From: Candidatus Zymogenaceae bacterium
GTDB lineage: Bacteria > Desulfobacterota > Zymogenia > Zymogenales > Zymogenaceae
NCBI GenBank assembly: GCA_016931225.1
Contig: JAFGFE010000018.1
Coordinates: forward strand, 124,001-188,000
Direction: 5' to 3'
Length of the DNA: 64,000 nucleotides
Shown piece by piece: positions 4,250 through 58,136 of the stretch. The position numbers and the translations under genes are program-made. The first letter of the stretch is position 1. Every line of letters begins with the position of its first letter. The notes beneath the pieces were generated by a model. The model did no database searches and was not told the origin of the DNA. It saw only the letters and a program-made list of their open reading frames with translations.

Positions 4250-5077
4250 TTGCTCGACGATCTGCGGATTTCGGTCAGATCGCTCGCCAGGCTCAAGGAG
4301 CTTCTGTACACGCGGTCGAATATCAACATGAACATCTACAAGGATGTCTATGTGAAGCGTCGGCTTCGAGTGCGGATGCGGGCCAAAAATTGCACGGACG
4401 TCGACGAGTATCTCGATCTGGCGGAACGGGACAAGGATGAATACAAACGGCTGCTCAATGCGCTGACGGTGAATGTCACCAGATTTTTTAGAAACAAGGA
4501 AACCTTCGACAACATCAGAAGGATCGTAGTCCCCGAGATCGTACAAAACAGGGAACATCGGGGCGATACAAAAATAAACATATTGAGTGTCGGCTGTTCC
4601 ACGGGAGAAGAGCCGTATAGCGTCGCAATTTGTTTTCTGGAATACTTCAAAAAAATAAACGGGAGATTTGATCTGAGGATAATCGGAACCGATGTCGACA
4701 AACGGGCGCTGTTTTATGCAATCAAGGGGATCTATCCGCCCGAGCGGATGTCGGGAATGTCATCGAACCTGATCGAAGACTATTTTGTTAAGGTTGACGC
4801 GGGCTATCAGGTGACACCGGAATTGAAGAAATCGGTTCTTTTTATCAAGAAAGATGTGCTTAAACAGAGGGTCCATAGACGGTTTGACCTGATTCTGGCC
4901 CGCAACATCCTGATTTACTTCTCCCGAAGATACCAGGAAATGTTGGAAACCGGATTTCATCGGCAACTGGTTGATGGAGGTTATCTTATCCTGGGGAGAA
5001 CCGAATCGCTTGTCGGTCGGGGACGGCATCTTTTTAGAACGGTGAGTATCCCTGACAGAATTTACCAAAAAGTGTAA
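4250..5077 (+). CDS. cheR: Chemoreceptor glutamate methyltransferase CheR
   Basis: CheR uses S-adenosylmethionine to methylate glutamates on the chemoreceptor. The protein has the helical N-terminal CheR domain and the SAM-binding loop SVGCSTGEEPYSVA. It also has GTDVD and the LARNILIYF motif of the catalytic domain. The listed start is TTG at 4250, which has no good ribosome-binding site. The strong AAGGAGGT at 4194-4201 fits better with an in-frame CTG at 4211 or ATT at 4214, the latter overlapping the Roadblock stop as TGATT. The true N-terminus may therefore be 12-13 residues longer. No TPR extension is present. Confidence 0.92.
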   Translation: MLDDLRISVRSLARLKELLYTRSNINMNIYKDVYVKRRLRVRMRAKNCTDVDEYLDLAERDKDEYKRLLNALTVNVTRFFRNKETFDNIRRIVVPEIVQNREHRGDTKINILSVGCSTGEEPYSVAICFLEYFKKINGRFDLRIIGTDVDKRALFYAIKGIYPPERMSGMSSNLIEDYFVKVDAGYQVTPELKKSVLFIKKDVLKQRVHRRFDLILARNILIYFSRRYQEMLETGFHRQLVDGGYLILGRTESLVGRGRHLFRTVSIPDRIYQKV

Positions 5078-5138
5078 CAATATCCCTTTAAAATTTGCCT
5101 CCATTGGTGTACTATAAAGTAAAACGGGAGGACCTGTA

Positions 5139-6422
5139 ATGAGAATAGAGATCGGCTACAAGTTTATTCTTGGATTCCTGCTGGTCATTCTTGCCTCCGT
5201 CATCGTTACTCAGATTGTTGATCTCCTCAACATCGTCGATGATGATTTACTTCAGCGCATGATTTCGGCGTTGATGTCCATTTGTATCGGGCTTGTATTA
5301 GGATGGCTGTTTACCAAGGGATTCACCGGAGATTTCCGCGAACTGACCAATACGACCGAAATAATCAGCCAGGGAGATTTGAGCCGGTATATCGATATCT
5401 CGGCCAAGAAAATATTTCCCGATGAGACGGTGGACCTGGCCAACGCCATTAATCGAATGTTAGGAAACCTGAGAGAGCTTGTCGGACACATCAAAAGTAC
5501 CGCATCCAACGTATCCGATTCCGCCCAGTCGCTTTCCACTTCGGCGGAGGAAATTAATGCATCCACCGAGGAAATTGCATCAACAATCGAACAGGTCTCC
5601 CGAGGTGCGGAGCACCAGGCCGAAATGGTCGAAACGACGTCCGGAATCATCAAGGAAATTGCGGGCAACATAGAAAAGGTTGCCGGCACGGCGCGGGAGC
5701 TTTCCCAGACCTCGGATAAGAGCCAGGAGGAGGCACGCAACGCCGGAGAGATGGTGGACAACGCCATGGAGCGAATGATGGCGGTGCTGGAGGACATGGA
5801 GAAAATCGGCATGGACATGCTCAGATTTTCGGAACAGGCCAGGGAAATCGGGAAGATTGTCGAGGTGATCAGCGGCGTGGCCCAGCAGACGAATCTTTTA
5901 GCTCTTAATGCCACCATCGAGGCGGCCCGGGCCGGCGAATACGGCAGGGGATTCGCCGTGGTCGCGGACGAGATCAGAAAGCTCTCCGAAAGCACCACGC
6001 GGTTCGCGGAGGAAATCACCGGGATCGTGAAAGTCATCCATGACAGCAGCGAAGAAACCATGACTGATGTTCGGGATGTCTTGAAAAACGTTCAGGACGG
6101 AAAGAACGTTATCAACTCGGCGGTCAACTCGCTGAACGGTGTTGTACGTATCGCACTGGATTCACTGCATGAACTCAACCGGATTTCAACGCTGACTCAG
6201 GAGCAGTCCTTCGGCGCAGAGAAAATGGTCAAGGCGGTGGATGAAATCGCCCGAGTAGCCGAAGACAACGCCGCCGCAACCGAGGAAGTATCCGCCGCCA
6301 CTGAGGAGCAGACCGCTTCGATGGAGGAGATGGCGTCAGCCGCCCAGGAATTATCGGATACGGCCGATCGATTGAAAAGTATAGTCAACTCCTTCAAGCT
6401 CGATCCGGAATTGGAGGTGTAG
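5139..6422 (+). CDS. Methyl-accepting chemotaxis protein without a periplasmic sensor domain
   Basis: The 427-residue receptor has two membrane segments (about 7-27 and 40-60) joined by only about 12 residues, so there is no extracytoplasmic ligand domain. A HAMP linker (about 61-115) and a long helical signalling domain follow. The highly conserved hairpin tip ([20 protein letters not shown]) lies around residues 247-270. Possible methylation sites with paired Glu/Gln residues flank it. It starts at ATG 5139 after GGGAGGACC. It probably senses membrane state, an interacting protein or a cytoplasmic cue and signals to the CheA-CheW pair in the same operon. Family is certain; the stimulus is unknown. 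Confidence 0.93.
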
Positions 6423-6426
6423 TGGC

Positions 6427-6912
6427 ATGGCCGAGGTGGAAACTCCAAGGCTTGTCCGTGCGCAGGGTCAGATCATCCTGTTTCGGGTGGGAAAGGAAAT
6501 TTACGCCATCGACATTAGAAAAGTGGAACGGATCGCCGACCTGCAGCCGATTACCAGAGTTCCTCGGGCGCCGGGGTTTGTTCGAGGGATCATGAACCTT
6601 GCGGGCAGCATCATCACCATGATCGATGTCGACAAGGTACTCGGCCTTGAGGATGAATCGCAGATCGACCAGGTTATCTTGCTGGAGCATGCGGGCATGA
6701 ACCTGGGGCTGGTTACCGGTCAAACAACCGACGTATTGAGCGTTGATGAGGAGTTTCTTTCCGGCGATACGATGCTCAGAGATGAAAACAAGGGAGAGAT
6801 TTTCGTTTCTTCTGTTTTTACCGAAGGAGATAGGATAATCAATTTGCTGGATGTGGATAAATTGGTACATTATGTGGAAACCTCGTTTAACGTGATGAGC
6901 TATGAGTTATAA
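6427..6912 (+). CDS. cheW: Chemotaxis coupling protein CheW
   Basis: CheW links the receptor to the CheA kinase. This 161-residue protein is one CheW/SH3-like domain, with the segments LFRVGKEIYAIDIRKVERIAD and RVPRAPGFVRGIMNLAGSII that mark the family. It begins 4 bases after the MCP stop behind GGAGGTG. Its last 11 bases overlap the start of cheY, so the two are probably translationally coupled. No extra domain or truncation is seen. Confidence 0.93.
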   Translation: MAEVETPRLVRAQGQIILFRVGKEIYAIDIRKVERIADLQPITRVPRAPGFVRGIMNLAGSIITMIDVDKVLGLEDESQIDQVILLEHAGMNLGLVTGQTTDVLSVDEEFLSGDTMLRDENKGEIFVSSVFTEGDRIINLLDVDKLVHYVETSFNVMSYEL

Positions 6913-7270
6913 AATATTGATTGTTGATGATGCGAATTTCATGCGCGTGATGCTGCGGGATGTTCTCACTTCCGAAGGATACGAAGTGGTAGGTGAAGCC
7001 AAAGACGGCGAGGAAGCGGTGGATCAGTACAAGAGATTGAAGCCGGATCTTGTCACGATGGATATTGTTATGCCCCTCAAGAGCGGCATCGATGCGGTCA
7101 AGGAAATAATCGATTTTGACCGCAACGCGAAAGTCATCATGTGCAGCGCGTTGGGCCAGGAGCCGTTGGTGGTGGAGGCGATAAACGCAGGCGCAAAGGA
7201 CTACATCGTCAAGCCGTTCGAGCCGGATAAAGTCATTGAGATGGTTAAAAAAGTAGCCGGTTTAAAGTAA
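6902..7270 (+). CDS. cheY: CheY-type single-domain response regulator
   Basis: This 122-residue receiver domain has the acidic pair VDDAN at residues 9-10 and the phosphoacceptor Asp54 in MDIVMP. The switch Ser/Thr is in MCSALG and the conserved lysine in YIVKPF. Like Bacillus and Thermotoga CheY it lacks any output domain. It would be phosphorylated by CheA and dephosphorylated by the CheC encoded downstream. Because the next gene is a CheB catalytic domain without its receiver, this CheY could also act as the detached regulatory half of CheB; that is speculation. The output, possibly the pilus motor, is unknown. Confidence 0.92.
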   Translation: MSYKILIVDDANFMRVMLRDVLTSEGYEVVGEAKDGEEAVDQYKRLKPDLVTMDIVMPLKSGIDAVKEIIDFDRNAKVIMCSALGQEPLVVEAINAGAKDYIVKPFEPDKVIEMVKKVAGLK

Positions 7271-7278
7271 GACGGGTA

Positions 7279-7869
7279 ATGGTCGAGGGGAAGCTGATCG
7301 TCATAGCGTCATCCACCGGTGGACCGAAAATACTGGTGGATATTTTTTCCCGTATAGATCATGTGCTGCCTGCATCAGTTATTGTTGTTCAGCATATGCT
7401 TCCCCGGTTTATCACGTCATTTGCTAATCGAATTAATAATGCGTCAAAAATGAATACCATCGTCGGTACCGATGGTCTGGCAATTGAGGAAGGGGTAATT
7501 ATCGTCGCCCCCGGTAAGCGTCATCTGGTTGTGGCGGAAGGAGAAGACGGGGATGCCCCCTTCCTGATTTTGCATGATGCGCCGCCGCATAAAGGCGTTA
7601 TTCCGGCCGCGGACTTTACCATGATATCCGCAGCGCGCATTTACAAGGCCGCGATGCTTGGTGTCATCATTACCGGCATGGGAAAAGACGGTACCGACGG
7701 ATTCGCCGCCGTCAAAGAAAACGGAGGGATGACCCTGGTACAGGACAGGGAGTCATCAGCGGTGTTCGGAATGCCCGGGGCCGCCATCAAGGCGGGGCTG
7801 GTTGATAAAGTACTTACCCCCGCCGAGATAGCCGAAGAGATTGTGAGATTTTCCTGGGAGGTTGATTAA
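7279..7869 (+). CDS. cheB: CheB methylesterase catalytic domain, lacking the receiver domain
   Basis: CheB removes methyl groups from, or deamidates, chemoreceptor side chains. The 196-residue product consists only of the esterase domain. The catalytic serine lies in ASSTGGP (Ser12), the histidine in QHMLPRF and the aspartate in TGMGKDG. Typical CheB proteins are about 350 residues with an N-terminal receiver; here that part is absent and a separate CheY ends 9 bases upstream. Activity may therefore be constitutive or controlled in trans. The ATG at 7279 has only a weak ribosome-binding site and could depend on coupling to cheY. Confidence 0.9.
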   Translation: MVEGKLIVIASSTGGPKILVDIFSRIDHVLPASVIVVQHMLPRFITSFANRINNASKMNTIVGTDGLAIEEGVIIVAPGKRHLVVAEGEDGDAPFLILHDAPPHKGVIPAADFTMISAARIYKAAMLGVIITGMGKDGTDGFAAVKENGGMTLVQDRESSAVFGMPGAAIKAGLVDKVLTPAEIAEEIVRFSWEVD

Positions 7870-7871
7870 CC

Positions 7872-9953
7872 ATGGATATGTCGCGTTACAAGAAAATATT
7901 CATGGAGGAATCTCGGGAGCATCTGAGCAAGCTGAGCCAGCTTTCCCTGGATCTCGAGAAAAATCCGGAAGACATGGAAGTGGTCAATGCGATTTTTCGA
8001 GAGGCTCACTCGGTTAAGGGTATGAGCGCCTCCATGGGGTTTGAGTCCATATCCGAGCTCACCCATAAGGTCGAGGACCTTATGGATGTCATCCGTAAGG
8101 GAATCATCACGATAAATCCTGACACCATCGATATTCTGCTCAAATCCGTAGATGTACTTGAGATGCAGTTGACCGCCGTGGACAAGGATGAAGATCCTTC
8201 GGTGCATCTCGGCGATATTATCGAACAGCTTTTGGCGGCGGCAGAGGGTGTGCCGGTTCCCGAGAAGCCGGCGGAAGAACGAGCGGCTGCGGGGCCGGAG
8301 GAGGAGCCCCACATATCCACAGAGGTTCTACGGGACGATTCGCGAGTATACAAGGTTGTGCTGCGTGTGGATCCCAAGGGGTCGAAACCGCACGTCAAGG
8401 CGCTGTTGGGCGTCAAGAAATTGTCCGAGCTTGGGAGGGTCATGGGGATGGTTCCGAATCTCCAGGATCTCAAGCAGGGCAACTGGGGGGGGATCATCGA
8501 GGGCGTGTTGACGGTAAACCTGCTGACCGGTGTTGACGAAGCCGATATCGCCAGGGCGTTGGGGGACATGCCGGACATCATCGGGCATGAGATCCTGCGC
8601 ACAAGCGCCAAGCCCCAGGAGGGGGCTCAGGAAAAAAAAATTCCTGAGCACGTCGAGGCCGTCGGAGAGCCTCCGGCGGATTCAAAAAAAGCCGTAAAAC
8701 CGGACACCCCCGAGGAAGAGAGCGACTCTCTGGAGCCTTCCGAAGCGTCCGGAGAAGGTCACGTCAGCATCGGGGAAATGCTCCCCTCGGGAGAGGTCTC
8801 CTCGGACCTGCCTCGATCCGTCCGTATCGGTACGGATGTTCTTGAGAGTTTCATTAATCTCGTCGGCGAACTCCTGATTACCAAATCCCGTATTCAGGTC
8901 TCTACCAGCGGACTGGGGATTACTCCGCTGGACGAGGCGGTTAATCGGCTTGAAAGCCTTATTCGGGAGCTGCATACCAAGGTCATAACCGTTCGCATGA
9001 TGCCCCTGGAGAGTATCCTCACCAGACTCCCCCGCCTGATTCGCGATATCGCACGGGAAAAGAAGAAGGAGATAGATTTCACCGTGACCGGCGGCGATAT
9101 TGAGCTTGACCGCGCCATCCTGGAGGAATTGTCGAACCCTCTGATGCATATCCTCAGAAATGCGGTGGATCACGGGATAGAGCCTCCCGAGGAACGGGAA
9201 GCGAAGGGAAAACCGAGGGAGGGCAGGGTCAGCCTGAACGCCTACCGGGAGAAGGACCTGGTCTTCATTGAGGTTGTGGATGACGGCAGGGGCATGGATC
9301 CTGCACGTATCAAGGAATCGGCGGTTTCCCGGGGGATCATTGGGAGGGAACAGGCCGATCTGTTAAGCGACGAGGAGCTGTTACTGTTGACGTTTATGCC
9401 CAATCTCTCAACCGCTCAGGAAGTGACGGATATTTCCGGACGCGGGGTGGGGATGGACGTGGTAAAGACGACCGTTGAGTCTCTGGGAGGTTCCGTCAAT
9501 TTAGAGGCGAAAAAGGACCGGGGGACGAGAATTGTCATGACGCTGCCCCTGACGGTCGCCATCATCCAGTCCCTCTTGGTGCGGGTCGGCGAGGAAACGT
9601 ACGTACTGCCGCTGAGCAAGACCGTGCGGTCCGCCGAGGTATCCCGGGATGCCGTCAAACGCAGTCAGAACCAACGGGTTGTCATCATCAACGATGAGAT
9701 GGTGCAGCTCATGAGCCTTGCGCGGCTTCTGGGACTGCCGGAGAACGGGGACGGTCGGCCGGTCATTCCGATGGTCGTCGTCGAGGTGAGGGGGAGGAAC
9801 ATCGGCCTTGAAGTGGACGAGATACTGGGAAGCGAAGAGGTGTTCATCAAATCCCTTGGCGAACCGCTGGAGCGTATCCCCGGATTTTCCGGGGTGACCA
9901 TCCTCGGTGACGGTCGGCCGGTACTGATTCTTGATGTTGTAAATTTGATGTAA
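7872..9953 (+). CDS. cheA: Chemotaxis histidine kinase CheA
   Basis: CheA autophosphorylates in response to the receptor and passes phosphate to CheY. Domains in order are HPt (about 1-105, phospho-accepting His46 in EAHSVKG) and a P2-like response-regulator-binding region (about 155-255) flanked by acidic, proline-rich linkers. A dimerisation domain, an HATPase domain (N-box RNAVDHGIEPP, then VDDGRGMD and GRGVGMDV) and a C-terminal CheW-like domain follow. The length of 693 residues is normal. ATG 7872 follows GGGAGG with 9-base spacing, 2 bases after cheB. There is no attached receiver domain, unlike the kinases of many social-motility systems. Confidence 0.95.
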   Translation: MDMSRYKKIFMEESREHLSKLSQLSLDLEKNPEDMEVVNAIFREAHSVKGMSASMGFESISELTHKVEDLMDVIRKGIITINPDTIDILLKSVDVLEMQLTAVDKDEDPSVHLGDIIEQLLAAAEGVPVPEKPAEERAAAGPEEEPHISTEVLRDDSRVYKVVLRVDPKGSKPHVKALLGVKKLSELGRVMGMVPNLQDLKQGNWGGIIEGVLTVNLLTGVDEADIARALGDMPDIIGHEILRTSAKPQEGAQEKKIPEHVEAVGEPPADSKKAVKPDTPEEESDSLEPSEASGEGHVSIGEMLPSGEVSSDLPRSVRIGTDVLESFINLVGELLITKSRIQVSTSGLGITPLDEAVNRLESLIRELHTKVITVRMMPLESILTRLPRLIRDIAREKKKEIDFTVTGGDIELDRAILEELSNPLMHILRNAVDHGIEPPEEREAKGKPREGRVSLNAYREKDLVFIEVVDDGRGMDPARIKESAVSRGIIGREQADLLSDEELLLLTFMPNLSTAQEVTDISGRGVGMDVVKTTVESLGGSVNLEAKKDRGTRIVMTLPLTVAIIQSLLVRVGEETYVLPLSKTVRSAEVSRDAVKRSQNQRVVIINDEMVQLMSLARLLGLPENGDGRPVIPMVVVEVRGRNIGLEVDEILGSEEVFIKSLGEPLERIPGFSGVTILGDGRPVLILDVVNLM

Positions 9954-17584: not shown

Positions 17585-18766
17585 ATGGATATAAATGAAA
17601 TATTAAAGATCGCTGTGAAGCAGGGCGCCTCGGACATTCACCTCAAGGTGGGGCTGCCCCCGGTCTTTCGGATAGACGGCTCCCTTTTTCCATTGAAAAA
17701 TACGAATCGGTCGACGCCGGATGATATCATCCGGGTGGCCGAGAGCATCATGAACAAAACACAGATGGAGCGCCTGAGAAATCTCAGCGATATCGACCTC
17801 GCGTACGGCGTTCCCGGTCTCGGCCGATTTCGGGTGAATGTGTTTCAGCAGCGGGGTACCCTGGGCGTCGTGCTCAGGTCCATCCCGGTAAAGATAAACA
17901 CAATCATGGAAAACCTCCTGCCGAGGGTCCTCGAGAAAATATCCCTGGAACCCCGGGGGCTTATCCTGGTTACCGGCACCACCGGTTCCGGTAAGTCCAC
18001 CACCCTGGCTTCCATGATAGACCATGTCAACACGAACCGGACGTGCCATATCATCACCATCGAGGATCCCATCGAGTTTCTCCATCGGGATAAAAAGAGC
18101 ATCATCAATCAGCGGGAAATCGGGCTTGACACCCTCGATTTCGCCTCATCCCTCAAGAGCGCCCTGCGCCAGGACCCGGACGTCATCCTTGTGGGCGAGA
18201 TGAGGGATTTCGAGACCATTGAAACGGCCCTGACGGCCGCGGAAACCGGCCATCTCGTTCTCAGCACCCTGCACACGGTCGACGCCACCGAGACCATCAC
18301 CCGTATCATCTCGGTGTTTCCCCCCTATCAGCAGCAGCAGATACGCATCCAGCTTGCCGGCATCCTTAAGGGGGTTGTCTCCCAGAGATTGGTGCCCCGG
18401 GCCGACGGCAAGGGGCGGGTTCCGGCGGTGGAAGTCATGGTGTCCACGTCACTCATCCGCGAGTGCATCAGTGAAAAGGAAAAGACAAAGGAAATCCACG
18501 ACGCCATCTCCCGGGGGTTTACCGTGCACGGCATGCAGACCTTCGACCAGTCGCTGATGTTCCTGTACAGAAAGGGGCTCATCACCTACGAAGAAGCCCT
18601 CAGGCAGAGCACGAACCCGGATGACTTCGCCCTCAGGGTGAAGGGTATCTCCTCCACCAGTGATTCCACCTGGGATCAGTTCGACCAGGAAGATATTCCG
18701 GAGAGCGATGACGGAGTGGAAGGGGACGGAAAAGAAGAAGGCGATATCAAGATCGAGCGGTTTTAA
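17585..18766 (+). CDS. pilT: Type IV pilus retraction ATPase PilT
   Basis: PilT is the hexameric ATPase that depolymerises type IV pili to power twitching. The 393-residue protein has the N-terminal PAS-like part (ASDIHLKVG, LPPVFRIDG), the Walker A GTTGSGKST, the Asp box with ITIEDPIEF, and Walker B/His box motifs (DPDVILVGEMRD, TGHLVLSTLHT). The retraction-specific C-terminal region reads STSLIRECISE in place of the usual AIRNLIRE. The acidic C-terminal tail of about 40 residues is not part of the family core. It separates recA from recX. No pilin or assembly genes are in the window. Confidence 0.94.
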   Translation: MDINEILKIAVKQGASDIHLKVGLPPVFRIDGSLFPLKNTNRSTPDDIIRVAESIMNKTQMERLRNLSDIDLAYGVPGLGRFRVNVFQQRGTLGVVLRSIPVKINTIMENLLPRVLEKISLEPRGLILVTGTTGSGKSTTLASMIDHVNTNRTCHIITIEDPIEFLHRDKKSIINQREIGLDTLDFASSLKSALRQDPDVILVGEMRDFETIETALTAAETGHLVLSTLHTVDATETITRIISVFPPYQQQQIRIQLAGILKGVVSQRLVPRADGKGRVPAVEVMVSTSLIRECISEKEKTKEIHDAISRGFTVHGMQTFDQSLMFLYRKGLITYEEALRQSTNPDDFALRVKGISSTSDSTWDQFDQEDIPESDDGVEGDGKEEGDIKIERF

Positions 18767-51772: not shown

Positions 51773-52798
51773 ATGACTCAGAAAAAGAACTACTCTGTGG
51801 CGGTTGCGGGCGCAACGGGTGCCGTGGGAAGCGAGATGATCAAAATCCTCCAGGAGCGGAACTTCCCGACAGGCAAGATCAAACTCCTTGCATCAAAAAG
51901 GTCCATCGGAAAGCGTCTTTCCTTTCGGGGTGAGGATGTGGCGGTAGAGGAGCTGACGAAGGATTCCTTCGACGGTGTTGATATCGCCCTCTTTTCCGCC
52001 GGTGGAAGCCGCAGCCTGGAATTCGCTCCGGCGGCGGCGTCGGCCGGTGCCGTGGTGATTGACAATTCGAGCGCCTTTCGAATGGAGGACGACGTCCCCC
52101 TGGTGGTGCCCGAGGTGAATCCGCATGCCGTGGCCGACTATACCAACCGCGGGATCATCGCGAATCCGAACTGTTCGACCATTCAGATGGTTGTGGCTTT
52201 AAAACCCCTGCATGACGAGGTGAAGATCAAACGGGTCGTCGTTTCCACCTACCAGGCAGTGTCCGGTACGGGCGCTCAGGCCATTATGGAGCTTGAGAAA
52301 CAGACCCGGGCGATTGTAGAAGGGAAGACCGCGGTTTCGAGTGTATATCCGCACCAGATCGCCTTCAACTGCCTTCCTCACATCGACGTGTTCACGGAAG
52401 ACGGATATACCAAGGAAGAGCTGAAGATGGTCAACGAGACCAGGAAGATCCTTGAGGCCCCCGACATCGCGGTGACCGCCACTACCGTTCGGGTGCCTGT
52501 CTACTACGGTCACAGCGAGTCGGTGAATGTGGAATTTCACGGCGCTCTTTCACCTGAGCGCGCCCGAGAGATCCTGGCAAAGGCGCCCGGCGTTGTGGTG
52601 ATGGACGAGCCGGGGAAAAACCTGTATCCCTTGGCGATCAATGCCGCGGGAAAGGACGATACCTACGTGGGCCGCATTCGCAAGGATTTTTCCATCGAGA
52701 ACGGATTGAATCTCTGGGTCGTCTCGGACAATCTCAGAAAGGGGGCGGCGCTCAACGCAGTCCAAATCGCCGAGCTTCTCATTGATGGATACATCTAA
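51773..52798 (+). CDS. asd: Aspartate-semialdehyde dehydrogenase
   Basis: Asd reduces aspartyl phosphate in the lysine, diaminopimelate, threonine and methionine pathways. The 341-residue protein has the nucleotide loop VAGATGAVGSEMIKIL, SAGGSRSLEFAP, and the active-site cysteine in NPNCSTIQ (about residue 130). YQAVSGTGAQA and a C-terminal RIRKD segment also fit. It lies directly after leuB, an order shared with Geobacter-type genomes. Confidence 0.96.
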   Translation: MTQKKNYSVAVAGATGAVGSEMIKILQERNFPTGKIKLLASKRSIGKRLSFRGEDVAVEELTKDSFDGVDIALFSAGGSRSLEFAPAAASAGAVVIDNSSAFRMEDDVPLVVPEVNPHAVADYTNRGIIANPNCSTIQMVVALKPLHDEVKIKRVVVSTYQAVSGTGAQAIMELEKQTRAIVEGKTAVSSVYPHQIAFNCLPHIDVFTEDGYTKEELKMVNETRKILEAPDIAVTATTVRVPVYYGHSESVNVEFHGALSPERAREILAKAPGVVVMDEPGKNLYPLAINAAGKDDTYVGRIRKDFSIENGLNLWVVSDNLRKGAALNAVQIAELLIDGYI

Positions 52799-52840: not shown

Positions 52841-55087
52841 ATGACTGATCCAGGTGTCTTGAAAAAATATCTTGATCTGATCAGATCGGGGGGCCTCACT
52901 CGACAGGATCGTTTAATCCTCGCCGGGGGCACCATGCCGAACGGAACCCCCACGCCGCCTGAAATTCTCGGCTTGCTCTTTCATGACGAGGATCGACATA
53001 TTCGTGAAGAGGCCGTCGGCTCGATGCTCAAGCTTTCCGAGCCGGAACTCAGGCAGCTGGCCATGGATACGAATTCCTCCTCTGAATTGCTGAAATTTCT
53101 GGCCACGCATTTTCACGACTCCCCTTCCATCGGCGTTTCAATTATCAGCAACAAGAACATCACCCTGGAGATCCTGAAAATCCTTCAGGGGAAGAGCGAC
53201 GATCGGGAATCGATGGAGTTTGACGGCGCCTTTTCTCACGAAGAGGTGATAGAGGCCGGATACCGTGATGCGGAGGAAAGCTACGATTCGTCCATCCTGG
53301 ATTCGATAGTTGAAGATGAAGAGGACATGACCATTGAGATCGAGATGGGCGATGACGATCTTTCTCTTGAAACCGAACCCCCCGGCGGCCCGCAAAAAGA
53401 TTTTTCGGAACCGTCGTCGGTGTTACCGGAACACTCCGGAGGCGGCGAAGAAATCGTCTTTGACAGATATGATATGAGCAGCCCGGATGACGAATCTCTC
53501 TCCACCGATCGACGGGAAGAACTCATTCTGGACGACGACAGCGATATGATTCGTGACGATCTTCATACAAGCCATACCGATGACATCGTTATTGATGAAG
53601 ACCTGATCGATGAACGGGATCAGTTTTCCCAAACCGTGGATTATATCGAGGAACGATTCGACGATGTGTTCGATTTCGTTCCCACATCAGGCGATGATTC
53701 TGAAGTAAAAGCCCCGAAGGACGATTTCAATATTGTTCTCGAACGAGGGCCGTTTGATACGTTGCTTACTCCTGAACATAAGGTTCAAAGGGAAGCCGTT
53801 CGGCCGACGGTTAGCGATGGCGACGCCGAGGTGACGCTTGCCACCGATAAATTCGTTACCCGGATACCGAAACAGCGGTATTACTATAAAGCCAGCCTTT
53901 TGGAGCTGCTGACGCCGGTCATTAAGATATCCATTCCCATCATAATCGTATTGCTCATCTTTTTGGTATATTGGATATCTGTTCCGAGAGAACCGCTTTC
54001 GGTGGAATCCTTTGAAAACGGCATCAACAGAAACCTGATTGACGGAAAGATCCTCGGATTCAACTCGAAGCTTCCCAATCCGCTGCCCGGCGATGCGACA
54101 ATATCTTCATGGAATTCTCTGGATGTCTCGGAGGAGACGGAAGTTGCATCCGGCAAGCTGCGTGGCGAGATGGATTCGTTCCTCACCACCTATGAAGTTG
54201 AAATTGAAATCGAGGATTTGAAAACCCGAATCGAAGGCGGTAAACGGGAGCTGAACAGCACGGAAAACCGACAGGTTGAAGTTGCAGATACCATTGAAGC
54301 CCTGAACACGAAGATCGCCTCCCTGGAGGAGATCGTTGTGAACGAGAATCTAAACGAGCGGGACATAGAAGACAAGAGACAGGAGGAGCTGGGCGCCTTC
54401 GAGGGGGAATTTGCCGAGTTAGAGGAGAGGCACCTGGTACTCGAGGAGGAGATCGCCGACGTGAAGCGACGAATCGCCGCATATGACGGCCCGATCGGCG
54501 AAGACGAAAGCCCGGGACATGTGGCGAATAAGATTGAGTTGGAGGCGCTGACCAAGGAGCTTGGGGAAGTGGCTCCGCAGTATAATCGGTACAAGGGCGA
54601 ATATCAGGGAATCGTCGACGTGATAAATCGGAAGTACGACACCATGCGTGATAACGTTAAAGCCCTGAAAAAATCAAAAGACATGCTTCAAACCCTCCAG
54701 AAGGAGCAGCTCAAGAACGTAGCATATATAGAGAATATTTACAGCCAGATAGAATCGAATACAAAAGATCTGGCGGCCCTGGAAAAATCACCTGAGCGGG
54801 GGCCCAAACTTAAGGGCGCCGCTCTCTCCAACTTTTTGGTGTTCAATTATTTTCTGGTGGAAAAGATGACCACTCGGGAGGAAGAGGTATCCTCCTTTGC
54901 GAGATATGCAATCTACAAGCGGGTTGCGAATATTGATGTAACCTATGAATTGTCCGACGGCGAGAAACGGGCTGCAACATATGCCTTTACGTTCATGCGC
55001 ATGGAGACGTTCAACAAGATCCTGGTTTTTACATGGAATTTCGACAGCACCACCTGGGTGCTGACCGGAATCGCAAGCGCAAAGTAA
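52841..55087 (+). CDS. Large unrecognised membrane protein: helical-repeat N-terminus, acidic linker, one membrane span, coiled coil
   Basis: I do not recognise this 748-residue protein. Residues 1-115 resemble HEAT-like helical repeats (EILGLLFHDEDRHIREEAVGSM). Residues about 125-330 are very acidic and look disordered. A single membrane helix lies at about 356-378. The rest contains long coiled-coil helices (about 445-650) and ends in a small beta-rich domain (TYELSDGEKRAATYAF). With one span, the acidic half is probably cytoplasmic and the coiled coil periplasmic. It sits between asd and ecfT and ends 13 bases before ecfT. A structural or scaffold role is possible but unproven. Confidence 0.75.
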   Translation: MTDPGVLKKYLDLIRSGGLTRQDRLILAGGTMPNGTPTPPEILGLLFHDEDRHIREEAVGSMLKLSEPELRQLAMDTNSSSELLKFLATHFHDSPSIGVSIISNKNITLEILKILQGKSDDRESMEFDGAFSHEEVIEAGYRDAEESYDSSILDSIVEDEEDMTIEIEMGDDDLSLETEPPGGPQKDFSEPSSVLPEHSGGGEEIVFDRYDMSSPDDESLSTDRREELILDDDSDMIRDDLHTSHTDDIVIDEDLIDERDQFSQTVDYIEERFDDVFDFVPTSGDDSEVKAPKDDFNIVLERGPFDTLLTPEHKVQREAVRPTVSDGDAEVTLATDKFVTRIPKQRYYYKASLLELLTPVIKISIPIIIVLLIFLVYWISVPREPLSVESFENGINRNLIDGKILGFNSKLPNPLPGDATISSWNSLDVSEETEVASGKLRGEMDSFLTTYEVEIEIEDLKTRIEGGKRELNSTENRQVEVADTIEALNTKIASLEEIVVNENLNERDIEDKRQEELGAFEGEFAELEERHLVLEEEIADVKRRIAAYDGPIGEDESPGHVANKIELEALTKELGEVAPQYNRYKGEYQGIVDVINRKYDTMRDNVKALKKSKDMLQTLQKEQLKNVAYIENIYSQIESNTKDLAALEKSPERGPKLKGAALSNFLVFNYFLVEKMTTREEEVSSFARYAIYKRVANIDVTYELSDGEKRAATYAFTFMRMETFNKILVFTWNFDSTTWVLTGIASAK

Positions 55088-55100
55088 TGTTCCGGCAATC

Positions 55101-55898
55101 ATGAGAATCCTCCAGGACATCACCCTCGGGCAATATATGCCCGCAGAATCCGTCATCCACAGACTGGATCCACGACTGAAATTTATTGTGCTCGTCGTTT
55201 TGATGGTGGTTGTTTTTTTCATAGAACAGCCCCTGAAGTTTGTCCTCCTCGGCCTCTGTGTGTTTTTGATAATCAGGCTTTCGAAGATTCCCCTTGCCTA
55301 CACGCTCAAGGGAATTGCGCCGTTTATATGGCTGTTTCTGTTCGCATCGATCGCTCATTTCTTTTTTACCCCCGGTGAATCCATCGCCCCGTTTCCCATC
55401 TGGAAGATCAACGTTACCCGTGAGGGGGTCGCAAACGGCGTTTTGGTGACGGCTCGGATATTTTTCATTATACTCCTGTCGTCCCTGTTGACCCTCACGA
55501 CAACCCCCCTGGAGCTGACCACAGCCCTGAAGCGGGGCCTGTCTCCCCTTGAGCGATGGAAGGTGCCGGTGGGGGATTTCGCCATGATGATGATGCTGAC
55601 CCTCAGGTTCGTGCCCATCCTGCTCATGGAGGCCAGGCGCGTTATCAACGCCCAGAAATCCCGGGGCATCGATTTCGAAGCCGGCGGCCTTGTAACGCGG
55701 GCCAGAAAGCTGGTGCCCATCTTCATTCCCCTGTTTCATCTCTCCTTCAAGCGGGCCGATGAGCTTGCAATCGCCATGACATGCCGCGGATACATGACCG
55801 GCATTTCCCGGACAATGTATCGGGAGCTCCGCTTCAAAAAGGTCGATTTCTATGCCGCGATCGTGTCCCTCCTTGTGATGCCGTTCTTTTTTATCTGA
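55101..55898 (+). CDS. ecfT: Energy-coupling factor transporter transmembrane protein EcfT
   Basis: EcfT couples ATPase subunits to a vitamin-binding S component. The 265-residue protein starts with the typical YMPAESVIHRLDPRLKF and has about five or six membrane helices. It carries the two coupling-helix motifs, here AQKSRG and AMTCRGY. ATG 55101 lies shortly after the upstream stop. The ATPase genes (ecfA) are missing from the window, while the S component bioY is two genes away, so a biotin transporter is the likely assembly. Confidence 0.92.
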   Translation: MRILQDITLGQYMPAESVIHRLDPRLKFIVLVVLMVVVFFIEQPLKFVLLGLCVFLIIRLSKIPLAYTLKGIAPFIWLFLFASIAHFFFTPGESIAPFPIWKINVTREGVANGVLVTARIFFIILLSSLLTLTTTPLELTTALKRGLSPLERWKVPVGDFAMMMMLTLRFVPILLMEARRVINAQKSRGIDFEAGGLVTRARKLVPIFIPLFHLSFKRADELAIAMTCRGYMTGISRTMYRELRFKKVDFYAAIVSLLVMPFFFI

Positions 55899-55899
55899 C

Positions 55900-56640
55900 A
55901 TGCGCACGATCAAGCTGGTCATCGCCTACGACGGCACGGATTTTCACGGCTGGCAGGTTCAGCCGGGCACACGGACCGTTCAGGGCGAGATTGAATCCAT
56001 CCTTTCCCTGATGACCGGAACGCCCACGCGGCTCTATGGGGCCGGGAGGACGGATGCCGGGGTGCACGCCCTGGGCCAGGTGGGTCATTTCAGGACCGAA
56101 AGCGCCATCGGTCGAGAGGACTTTTTTCGCGGTCTCAACGGACTGCTTTCGGACGACATCGGTATCCTTTCCGTCGAGGATGTCTCAGGCAACTTCGACG
56201 CCCGTCGATCGGCGACGGCCCGGGTGTATCGCTACTTTATATCTGAGGGCGGCGCCCCCCTCCCCTTTACCCGGCGGTATGTCTGGCATATGCGGGAGAT
56301 GCTGGATCTGGAGCGCATGACGCGGGCGGCTTCTCATCTCATCGGCACTCACGACTTCGCGTCGTTCGCCGGGGCGGGGGGGGATGATGAGGTGACGATA
56401 CGGGATGTATATGCGCTTGTCCTCTCCCGAAATCGGGGGGGGATTATCGAGATATGCGTGGAAGCAAACGCGTTTCTCCGGCACATGGTGAGAAACATTG
56501 CGGGCACCCTCGTGGAGGTGGGGAGGGGGAGGCGGGATCCCGACGAGATGCCCGATCTGATTTTAGCGAAAGACAGGGCGGCGGCGGGGGAAACCGCCCC
56601 GGCCCGCGGACTGTTTCTTGTGGAGGTGAAATATCCATAA
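55900..56640 (+). CDS. truA: tRNA pseudouridine(38-40) synthase TruA
   Basis: TruA modifies uridines 38-40 in the tRNA anticodon stem. The 246-residue protein has YDGTDFHGWQVQPGTRTVQGE, the catalytic aspartate in GAGRTDAGVHALGQV, ARRSATARVYRYF and FLRHMVRNIAGTLVEVG. It begins 1 base after ecfT; an ecfT-truA pairing is also common in Firmicutes. It is sandwiched between two biotin-transport genes. Its 3' end carries GGAGGTGA, which probably serves bioY. Confidence 0.95.
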   Translation: MRTIKLVIAYDGTDFHGWQVQPGTRTVQGEIESILSLMTGTPTRLYGAGRTDAGVHALGQVGHFRTESAIGREDFFRGLNGLLSDDIGILSVEDVSGNFDARRSATARVYRYFISEGGAPLPFTRRYVWHMREMLDLERMTRAASHLIGTHDFASFAGAGGDDEVTIRDVYALVLSRNRGGIIEICVEANAFLRHMVRNIAGTLVEVGRGRRDPDEMPDLILAKDRAAAGETAPARGLFLVEVKYP

Positions 56641-56665
56641 GCACACGCGGCTTCAGGTTCTGACG

Positions 56666-57196
56666 ATGGTGGCTCTTTTTTCCGCGTTGACGGCGGCGGG
56701 TGCGTATATCAAGATCCCCCTGCCTCCGGTCCCGCTGACGCTGCAGACCATGATGGTATATCTTTCCGGGCTCGTATTAGGGGGACGGGCCGGGGCGCTG
56801 TCCCAGGCGATATATCTGTTGTTGGGTCTTCTGGGTCTTCCGGTATTCGCATCGGGTGGGGGACCGGTATATATCCTCTCGCCCACGTTCGGGTATCTTA
56901 TTGCGTTCGTGCCCGCGTCGCTGGTTGTGGGATATTCGGTTCGACGATTAAAGGGGCGCGCGAGAATTTTAAGTATTGTGGCTGGAATGCTGGTGGTGTA
57001 TAGTATCGGTGTTGGATACCTTCTTTTTTCCATGAATGTGCTGCTTGACAAACCGATGAACGTGTATGACGCCGTCCGCGCCGGTTTTTTGATTACCGCA
57101 CCGGGGGAGATTCTCAAGGGCGTGGTATGCTGGATTTGTTACGCGTCGCTGGAACGTCGATTCGATCTGCCTCTGTTCGGGGGAGGTCATGATTGA
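56666..57196 (+). CDS. bioY: Biotin transporter substrate-binding subunit BioY
   Basis: BioY is the biotin-specific S component of ECF transporters. The protein has six hydrophobic helices and the family motifs IPLPPVPLTLQTMMVYLSG, GLLGLPVFASGGGPVYILSPTFGYLI and a C-terminal GEILKGVVCW. The listed ATG at 56666 begins inside the first helix and lacks a ribosome-binding site. The frame is open upstream to 56630, and an ATC at 56633 lies 6 bases after GGAGG in the end of truA. Starting there would add 11 residues (MHKHTRLQVLT) and give a normal family N-terminus. Confidence 0.92.
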   Translation: MVALFSALTAAGAYIKIPLPPVPLTLQTMMVYLSGLVLGGRAGALSQAIYLLLGLLGLPVFASGGGPVYILSPTFGYLIAFVPASLVVGYSVRRLKGRARILSIVAGMLVVYSIGVGYLLFSMNVLLDKPMNVYDAVRAGFLITAPGEILKGVVCWICYASLERRFDLPLFGGGHD

Positions 57197-58136
57197 CGAA
57201 CCGACCCTCTTTGATGTACCGCTGGAAAAGCTTGTCGGCATTACCCGGTCGATGATAGGCCAAGACGTTGAGAAGGCGAAGGAGGACATCGAGACTCTTT
57301 CGAATATATATCCGCATCACCCCCACATCAATCGGGAAAAAAAGATTGTTCTTCACATCCACGAGGCCTTGAACACGGACGGCACCCCCGCGGAGTTTTT
57401 CAAGCGTTTTCGTGCATACAGGAAGCTCCTGCAGGAGCTGGCATATGCCCCGACATACGCCATCCAGGTCGAGGAGCTGTTTTTCCGGCGGATCATCGAG
57501 ACCTTCGGCGACGATCCCCCCCAGCCGGTGTACGGATTCCCCACGGGTTATTTGTTGATGAAAGCGGGCATGTTCGAGGATGCCAGGGAGAGCCTGGAGG
57601 GGGAGGCCTCCGCCCCGTCGCTGCCGTCAAGATCCCGGGCACGGCTCGTCGGATACCTGGGGGATCTCTTTTCCATGATGGGCGATGAGCCTGTGGCCCG
57701 AAAAAAATACCTCGAGGCGATGCTGACCGACTGGCGGGGGATGGATGCCGATAATATCGTCGACGAGGACGTTCGGGCGCTTCTGAGCGGGTCGTACGTG
57801 TCGGAGGATCACGGCGGCGTTTGGGCCGCGTCGGTGGGGGCGATGTTTCTCATCCTGCCGCGACCGGATTTCGCCGATTCCGATGAGGTGCTCCGGTTTT
57901 CAAAGGAATTTCTCGCTCTGAAGAACGCGCAGAAGAAGGACGAGAGTGAAGAGCTGGCCGGAAAGCTCTTTTTCTACGCCCTGGTCATCGCCGAAAACGA
58001 GCGGCTGTTTCGCTCTCTCAAAGACGCGGATATCATGGAGCTGAGAAAATTGATGCGGCGGCTCAACGCCTCTCTCTTTCGCTTGTATACCAAGATCAGC
58101 CTCTCCTCGGACCGGGATGCCGAAGATCAATCATAG
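57189..58136 (+). CDS. Helical-repeat (TPR-like) cytoplasmic protein of unknown function
   Basis: The 315-residue protein is almost wholly helical, with repeat-like pairs resembling degenerate TPRs (for example LLMKAGMFEDARESLEGE and YLGDLFSMMGDEPVARKKYLEAM). It has no signal peptide or membrane span. ATG 57189 follows GGAGGTC and overlaps the end of bioY by 8 bases, so it is translationally coupled. I recognise no specific family. It faces the convergent DUF488 gene with only 9 bases between the stops. Confidence 0.75.
   Translation: MIDEPTLFDVPLEKLVGITRSMIGQDVEKAKEDIETLSNIYPHHPHINREKKIVLHIHEALNTDGTPAEFFKRFRAYRKLLQELAYAPTYAIQVEELFFRRIIETFGDDPPQPVYGFPTGYLLMKAGMFEDARESLEGEASAPSLPSRSRARLVGYLGDLFSMMGDEPVARKKYLEAMLTDWRGMDADNIVDEDVRALLSGSYVSEDHGGVWAASVGAMFLILPRPDFADSDEVLRFSKEFLALKNAQKKDESEELAGKLFFYALVIAENERLFRSLKDADIMELRKLMRRLNASLFRLYTKISLSSDRDAEDQS

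Follow-up and report, generated by a model that had tools for sequence, protein, structure and literature searches.

The genome of a Candidatus Zymogenaceae bacterium, a family placed by NCBI in the Deltaproteobacteria and by GTDB in the phylum Desulfobacterota, carries between asd and ecfT a frame coding for a protein of 748 amino acids. An initial sequence-only reading described it as a membrane protein of no known family that might bridge cytoplasm and envelope. The questions addressed here are whether the frame is a real gene, to what its product is related and what it may do. The window, i.e. the whole stretch of DNA that was analysed, has a length of 64,000 nucleotides. Literature searches on Zymogenia together with Desulfobacterota, or on Zymogenus, gave no result.

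Identification of the gene and its orthologs

The coding sequence starts with ATG and extends from position 52841 to 55087 of the + strand, stop codon included. This is a genuine gene and not a chance frame, because two other genomes carry, in the same asd–ecfT interval, orthologs aligning over the full length. The orthologs count 812 aa (G002) and 835 aa (G003), are alignable along the whole 748-aa protein and share 32 and 30% identity with it, respectively. The contig of G003 is letter for letter that of Candidatus Zymogenus sp. (JAUWME010000054.1). In the three genomes with the locus, asd, the gene and ecfT follow each other on one strand, and the gene is separated by 8–42 nt from asd and by 9–13 nt from ecfT. 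The length and position given by the sequence-only reading were thus borne out.

Among 59 genomes near the window, genuine matches were obtained in three (the own genome, G002 and G003), all from one family. The conservation figures presented below derive from three sequences, two of them from one genus, and the structure models are likewise thinly based. A match in a further genome (G050; E 1.9e-4, residues 451–549) fell in a 122-aa ORF and was rejected as a chance coiled-coil similarity. G001, the fourth genome of this family, gave no match to the 748-aa protein, to asd or to the ~315-aa neighbour, and for ecfT only distant relatives; the absence of the protein there is uninformative because asd was likewise not found. 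A profile of the last 110 alignment columns, run against 297 genomes of the phylum, detected the same three orthologs and five beta-domain matches outside the family (E 0.05–0.09), which were discarded as chance. Pattern scans of genome contigs, which favour close relatives, returned at most one relative.

The protein evolves faster than its neighbours, with 32% identity to G002 compared to 48–71% for six neighbouring products (leuB, asd, ecfT, truA, bioY and the next ORF), and the GC3 of the gene is 59.8 against 70.7–78.5 in four neighbours. Both figures could be read as signs of a decaying or weakly constrained protein, whose layout is conserved without a specific role. Such decay is nevertheless considered very improbable, as frames of 748–835 aa have stayed open at the same place in all three genomes with the locus, and the N-terminal head, the hairpin tip and the C-terminal beta domain (see below) have been kept.

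The asd–ecfT interval

The upstream neighbour (51773–52798, + strand) matched Pfam Semialdhyde_dh/dhC and the downstream one (55101–55898, + strand) Pfam CbiQ, which confirms the earlier placement of the gene between asd and an ECF transporter gene. The EcfT and BioY genes with truA between them (55101–57196) possibly form a biotin uptake set. They are followed by a gene for a 315-aa protein (57189–58136) with a sub-threshold TPR row only and no matching family, 48% conserved in G002 and G003 and located in the same cluster in the window and in G002. Elsewhere in the window (4250–9953 and 17585–18766), ORFs resembling by eye CheR, a chemoreceptor, CheA and PilT suggest that this genome encodes chemosensing functions and type IV pili.

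A search for ecfT in 198 phylum genomes delivered 41 matches, and 30 of the loci were read, three of them being the family's own. In 12 of the 27 loci outside the family (L097–L100, L104–L109, L112 and L113), asd directly precedes ecfT without the gene, with at most ~265 nt between the alignments, a spacing far too short for a 748-aa gene. The stretch read showed no asd in the remaining 15. The two genes are probably an old pair. Since they adjoin without it in other families, the 748-aa gene was probably inserted into the pair, loss elsewhere being the less simple alternative.

For the same reason, the position next to asd and ecfT is a poor clue to function. The short gaps and the common strand in three genomes would fit co-transcription, with the protein assisting the adjacent ECF (BioY/EcfT) vitamin transporter or some other neighbouring product. 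However, the pair occurs without the gene in the 12 loci and is probably older, and no ECF component is known to have a long periplasmic hairpin. A role of this kind is therefore regarded as most improbable.

Comparison with described families

The 748-aa protein reached no curated cut-off in Pfam or NCBIfam, and PHROGs and PADLOC returned weak rows with no fitting family. A clear match to a described family, sought as a refutation of the orphan status initially proposed, was found in none of the four collections. The orphan status held against these databases, but not entirely, as residues 20–120 belong with an undescribed family of ~350-aa HEAT-like proteins (see below). Coiled-coil rows for SMC, Rad50, occludin, syntaxin, MakB, LmuB, phrog_937 ('hemolysin') and others were located in or around the hairpin and were weak or far below cut-off. 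The SMC/Rad50 ATPase model (NCBIfam TIGR02169), for example, scored 22.9 bits against a cut-off of 729.4 and matched residues 452–650 only. A PADLOC row for RT_X (E 0.0058, 14.1 bits) concerned residues 24–59 of the head alone and was judged to be chance.

Three types of domains were specifically considered. Pfam HEAT models (PF02985 and HEAT_2, PF13646) gave no row at E≤1 with the whole protein or at E≤10 with residues 1–130. No row for SPOR (PF05036) was obtained at E≤1 with the protein or its periplasmic part, and a SPOR search of four genomes gave no match at the locus. Profiles of the HlyD/EmrA type produced no row at E≤1 in Pfam or NCBIfam.

Layout and predicted topology

All parts of the protein are encoded on the + strand. 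A HEAT-like helical module (the head) forms residues 1–119 (52841–53197). It is followed by a poorly conserved linker (residues 120–345; 53198–53875), in which 71 of 226 residues are D or E and whose composition suggests disorder. The sequence-only reading had mentioned about 200 acidic residues, which holds for the approximate length of this acidic stretch but not as a count, the whole protein having 156 D and E. An acidic–hydrophobic motif in the linker (3, 2 and 2 sites in the three proteins versus 0.21, 0.18 and 0.35 in shuffles) was given no weight, as the pattern was chosen after viewing the sequences.

The single membrane span announced earlier was recovered by hydropathy at residues 363–381 (53927–53983), with a mean Kyte–Doolittle value of 2.78, and 2.82 and 2.81 in the orthologs. 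In the three proteins, the 25 residues before the span contain 5–6 K/R and 1–2 D/E, while 3–4 K/R and 3–6 D/E follow it, which makes a moderate contrast. Because basic residues are enriched before the span, the positive-inside rule assigns the N-terminus to the cytoplasm and the hairpin to the periplasm. The protein is thus probably N-in with one span and a periplasmic hairpin, as judged from sequence, and this predicted topology is consistent with the link between cytoplasm and envelope suggested by the initial reading.

Beyond the span, a predicted periplasmic stretch (residues 383–439; 53987–54157) with two short low-confidence strands leads to a predicted antiparallel helical hairpin (residues 440–648, with helices at 440–501, 506–548 and 558–648; 54158–54784). 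The hairpin includes a conserved tip (residues 539–575; 54455–54565). A C-terminal beta domain with four predicted strands (residues 689–748; 54905–55084) ends the protein. The tip, the beta domain and the homology of the head were absent from the sequence-only reading.

Identical columns among the three orthologs amount to 40% in the head, 38% in the tip, 35% in the beta domain, 26% in the pre-hairpin stretch and 22% in the span region, to be compared with 15% in the linker and in the stretch before the beta domain and 10–16% in the hairpin arms. The tip accounts for 15 identical columns out of 37, versus 36 out of 209 over the entire hairpin. Windows of 37 columns as conserved as the tip occurred in 123 of 20000 column shuffles, a figure which allows for position but whose window width was chosen post hoc.

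Structure models of the periplasmic part

The periplasmic part was modelled from the three-row alignment with a mean pLDDT of 72.8 and a pTM of 0.46. The long coiled coil of the initial reading reappeared as a predicted helical pair (residues 440–548 and 558–648) with most blocks above pLDDT 90, lower values in the tip and over the initial 20 residues of arm 1 (57–80; 62–80 for the tip alone) and low values at the ends. Foldseek and VIA rows for the hairpin consisted of generic long hairpins (SMC, SH3BP5, chemoreceptors, RipA, EmrA), with VIA Z scores of up to 11.8, within the range common for long helices, and profile searches of the PDB likewise gave mostly coiled coils. When modelled alone, the beta domain displayed the same four strands (pLDDT 60.8). 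It obtained no Foldseek match below E 0.15, and its best VIA Z score, 5.1 over 42 residues (3kvp), is not evidence of a new fold. No HlyD- or SPOR-type fold appeared among the VIA titles listed, which excludes nothing.

Proteins of the EmrA/HlyD family are built in the order span, strands, long hairpin, strands, and the predicted order of elements in the 748-aa protein is the same. The protein could then be a periplasmic adaptor, in which one half of a beta domain follows the span, the hairpin reaches to an outer-membrane channel and the second half of the beta domain closes the chain. The conserved tip and a Foldseek row for EmrA (4tko; rank 18, E 3.8e-3, probability 0.99) would agree with it. 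The strands predicted on either side of the hairpin, where such an adaptor would have its lipoyl and beta-barrel domains, are of low confidence. In contrast, the family itself was matched by neither Pfam nor NCBIfam, the EmrA row is generic, stands lower in the list than unrelated coiled coils and superposes poorly (TMq 0.30, rmsd 17.6), and the beta domain alone finds nothing. Inspection of the neighbouring ORFs by eye revealed no efflux gene either. An adaptor function is consequently seen as improbable.

Homology of the head to a family of HEAT-like proteins

The 748-aa protein is not a complete orphan: sequence comparison shows homology between its residues 20–120 and the first half of the proteins of a HEAT-like family (~350 aa). 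When 297 phylum genomes were searched with a three-row profile of residues 1–119, 18 of them gave matches at E≤0.01, among these the three orthologs. All further matches were the N-termini of proteins of ~300–400 aa, one of which is encoded in the own genome (L051:6633-7691). In the reverse direction, an HMM of 14 family members scored the orthologs with 45.5, 42.9 and 39.0 bits, the best of 3000 shuffled N-termini reaching 7.5. It aligned residues 20–120 of the 748-aa protein to model positions 21–121 only, scored at most 2.0 bits elsewhere and revealed no trace of the second-half module. With hhalign, head and family were paired with a probability of 98.3 over 101 columns. The HMM and hhalign figures lean upwards, since it was the head profile that served to assemble the family. 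A single comparison, BLASTP of the head against the own-genome paralog (E 4e-6, 26% over 107), is the plainer figure, although the paralog itself was also found by profile.

Five relatives scanned in Pfam gave at best 16.6 bits for HEAT_2 (cut-off 27.7) and 14.6 for HEAT (cut-off 23.5), and a PDB profile search with the head gave marginal rows (E 0.12–1), many of them the HEAT protein PP2A-A. With sub-threshold rows of this kind in the family members, 'HEAT-like' is a description and not a membership. The HEAT-like part of the initial reading stands in that descriptive sense, while the Pfam HEAT models themselves do not match the protein.

Besides the homology of residues 20–120, both proteins continue after the head with a linker, acidic by eye in several family members. 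They differ in what comes next: the ~350-aa proteins have a second module where the 748-aa protein has its linker, span, hairpin and beta domain. A strong span was found in none of 14 family members tested, the largest 19-residue Kyte–Doolittle mean being 1.61. A bacterial scaffold comparable by description is PomY of Myxococcus xanthus, which also combines HEAT repeats with a coiled coil and a disordered region (PMC10307791). Its parts are arranged in a different order (coiled coil, HEAT, disordered region), and no membrane span is mentioned in the portion of that paper considered here.

Distribution and gene neighbourhood of the HEAT-like family

None of the five members scanned corresponded to a Pfam or NCBIfam model. 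A 13-row alignment of the family, with either half counted at E≤1e-5, matched 101 of 297 phylum genomes and 70 of 198 genera, many by the second half alone. Both halves in one frame were present in at least 40 genomes among the matches listed.

Twelve neighbourhoods were inspected, in ten of which the family gene was among the picked ORFs; the other two (L057 and L061) hold it by profile match. Recurrent neighbours were EF-G (nine loci), CoaX (nine), BirA (seven), NadC (six) and an MglA-like GTPase (six). A SPOR-domain protein occurred in seven, and two more fall into a separate cluster. Gene order was then counted in the 30 best-scoring loci, taken from 30 of the 101 matching genomes. A SPOR-domain gene lies directly upstream of the HEAT-like gene in 26 of these 30, or in 18 of 22 without the eight loci from the genomes that served as source of the SPOR profile. 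A gene for an MglA-type GTPase lies directly downstream in 10 of 30, or in 6 of 26 without the four loci holding the GTPase query sequences. The gene order of the relatives thus points to a SPOR envelope system in the first place, with MglA-type GTPases coming second. The set SPOR, HEAT-like and MglA-type is present in the own genome (L051:5725-8790, on G000:C15) and among L063–L092. The GTPase of the own-genome operon aligned with solved MglA with an E-value of 3.8e-73 over residues 1–194 and has ~165 further residues at its C-terminus; in L061 the extension reaches ~750 residues.

SPOR-domain single-pass envelope proteins such as DamX, DedD and FtsN (Pfam PF05036) resemble the 748-aa protein by a cytoplasmic, sometimes acidic N-terminus, one span and a periplasmic part, and genes of the SPOR type adjoin those of the HEAT-like family. 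The 748-aa protein differs from them by its hairpin and beta domain and by having no detected SPOR domain. Seven of the 26 SPOR partners (L063, L066, L067, L068, L073, L078 and L081) have, before one span, tails of 79–130 residues with a clear excess of D/E over K/R, the length being measured from where the open frame begins. The tails of the others are short or neutral, and six partners are truncated because the locus stops there. The readable SPOR copies of Zymogenaceae (L064, L065 and L075) lack an acidic tail and begin with a short segment resembling a signal or a lipobox. It is tempting to think that in Zymogenaceae the fused protein supplies the acidic membrane-tethered part.

Two further relatives from the own genome carry the second module. 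One (L124:1870-2763, G000:C5) combines in one protein a PilZ-like domain (TIGR02266, E 5.3e-11, 42.5 bits, below the cut-off of 68.7), an acidic linker and the second module, and is possibly a c-di-GMP-reading relative. The other (L125:2125-3027, G000:C10) is a 300-aa protein that scores 82 bits for the second module and obtains no row from Pfam at E≤0.1. Its gene adjoins an ORF resembling by eye a membrane metalloprotease.

Literature searches joining the SPOR domain with the HEAT repeat, or PilZ, the HEAT repeat and Geobacter, returned nothing, and those joining MglA with the SPOR domain returned work on Francisella only, whose MglA is a different protein. In the classification of prokaryotic small GTPases of up to 240 aa by Wuichet and Sogaard-Andersen (PMC4316618), a word search of the main text found neither HEAT nor SPOR. 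The SPOR, HEAT-like and MglA-type gene set was not found described in the literature searched.

The presence of the GTPase gene raises an alternative view of the 748-aa protein, in which its HEAT-like head binds an MglA-type Ras-like GTPase and the protein acts as an effector by which the envelope is informed of polarity or motility. The HEAT–SPOR–MglA set found elsewhere would then be the multi-gene form of the same device. The 10 loci with the GTPase gene include the paralog operon of the own genome. Three MglA-like genes of that genome are clear and a fourth is weak. All of these lie off the contig of the window, however; no GTPase gene was found beside the HEAT-like gene in 20 of the 30 loci, SPOR is the steadier partner, and adjacency of genes does not equal binding. 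The effector function is therefore judged unlikely.

Proposed function of the 748-aa protein

The explanation we favour, to which about an even chance is given, is that of a single-pass inner-membrane scaffold, a lineage-specific fusion coupling a cytoplasmic HEAT-like head to a periplasmic rod. It is weakened by the small number of sequences, the poor models of the beta domain and the tip, the generic structure rows for the hairpin, the low GC3 of the gene and the housekeeping cluster around it, which gives no hint of function. In such a scaffold, the N-terminus would lie inside the cell and the head would dock a cytoplasmic partner, while the acidic linker would act as a long flexible tether between head and span. 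The span would carry the coupling to the stiff periplasmic hairpin, which with ~100 residues per arm would measure ~14–16 nm if straight. The conserved tip may contact something at the cell wall or the outer membrane, and the beta domain would come back near the membrane, at the base of the hairpin. The protein may have originated in Zymogenaceae, when the first half of a wider HEAT-like protein, whose gene elsewhere adjoins one for a SPOR-domain envelope protein, acquired a membrane and periplasmic portion of new origin. That each end docks a partner, that the protein serves as a bridge and that the fusion went in this direction are our inferences.

A wider and decidedly unlikely possibility is that the HEAT-like family belongs to an undescribed envelope-coupling module, made up of the HEAT-like protein, a SPOR-domain membrane protein and, in part of the genomes, a C-terminally extended MglA-type GTPase. 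The GTPase would be read by the HEAT part and the wall by the membrane part, and the Zymogenaceae protein, a HEAT half with a span and a periplasmic hairpin of its own, would be an effector fused into one chain. If true, the signal of a Ras-like GTPase would be sent straight across the inner membrane by a single chain. The 748-aa protein was found in one small family only, yet it leads to a HEAT-like family whose profile, with either half counted, matches about one third of the sampled phylum genomes, and which is a testable candidate for the coupling of Ras-like GTPases or c-di-GMP to the envelope.
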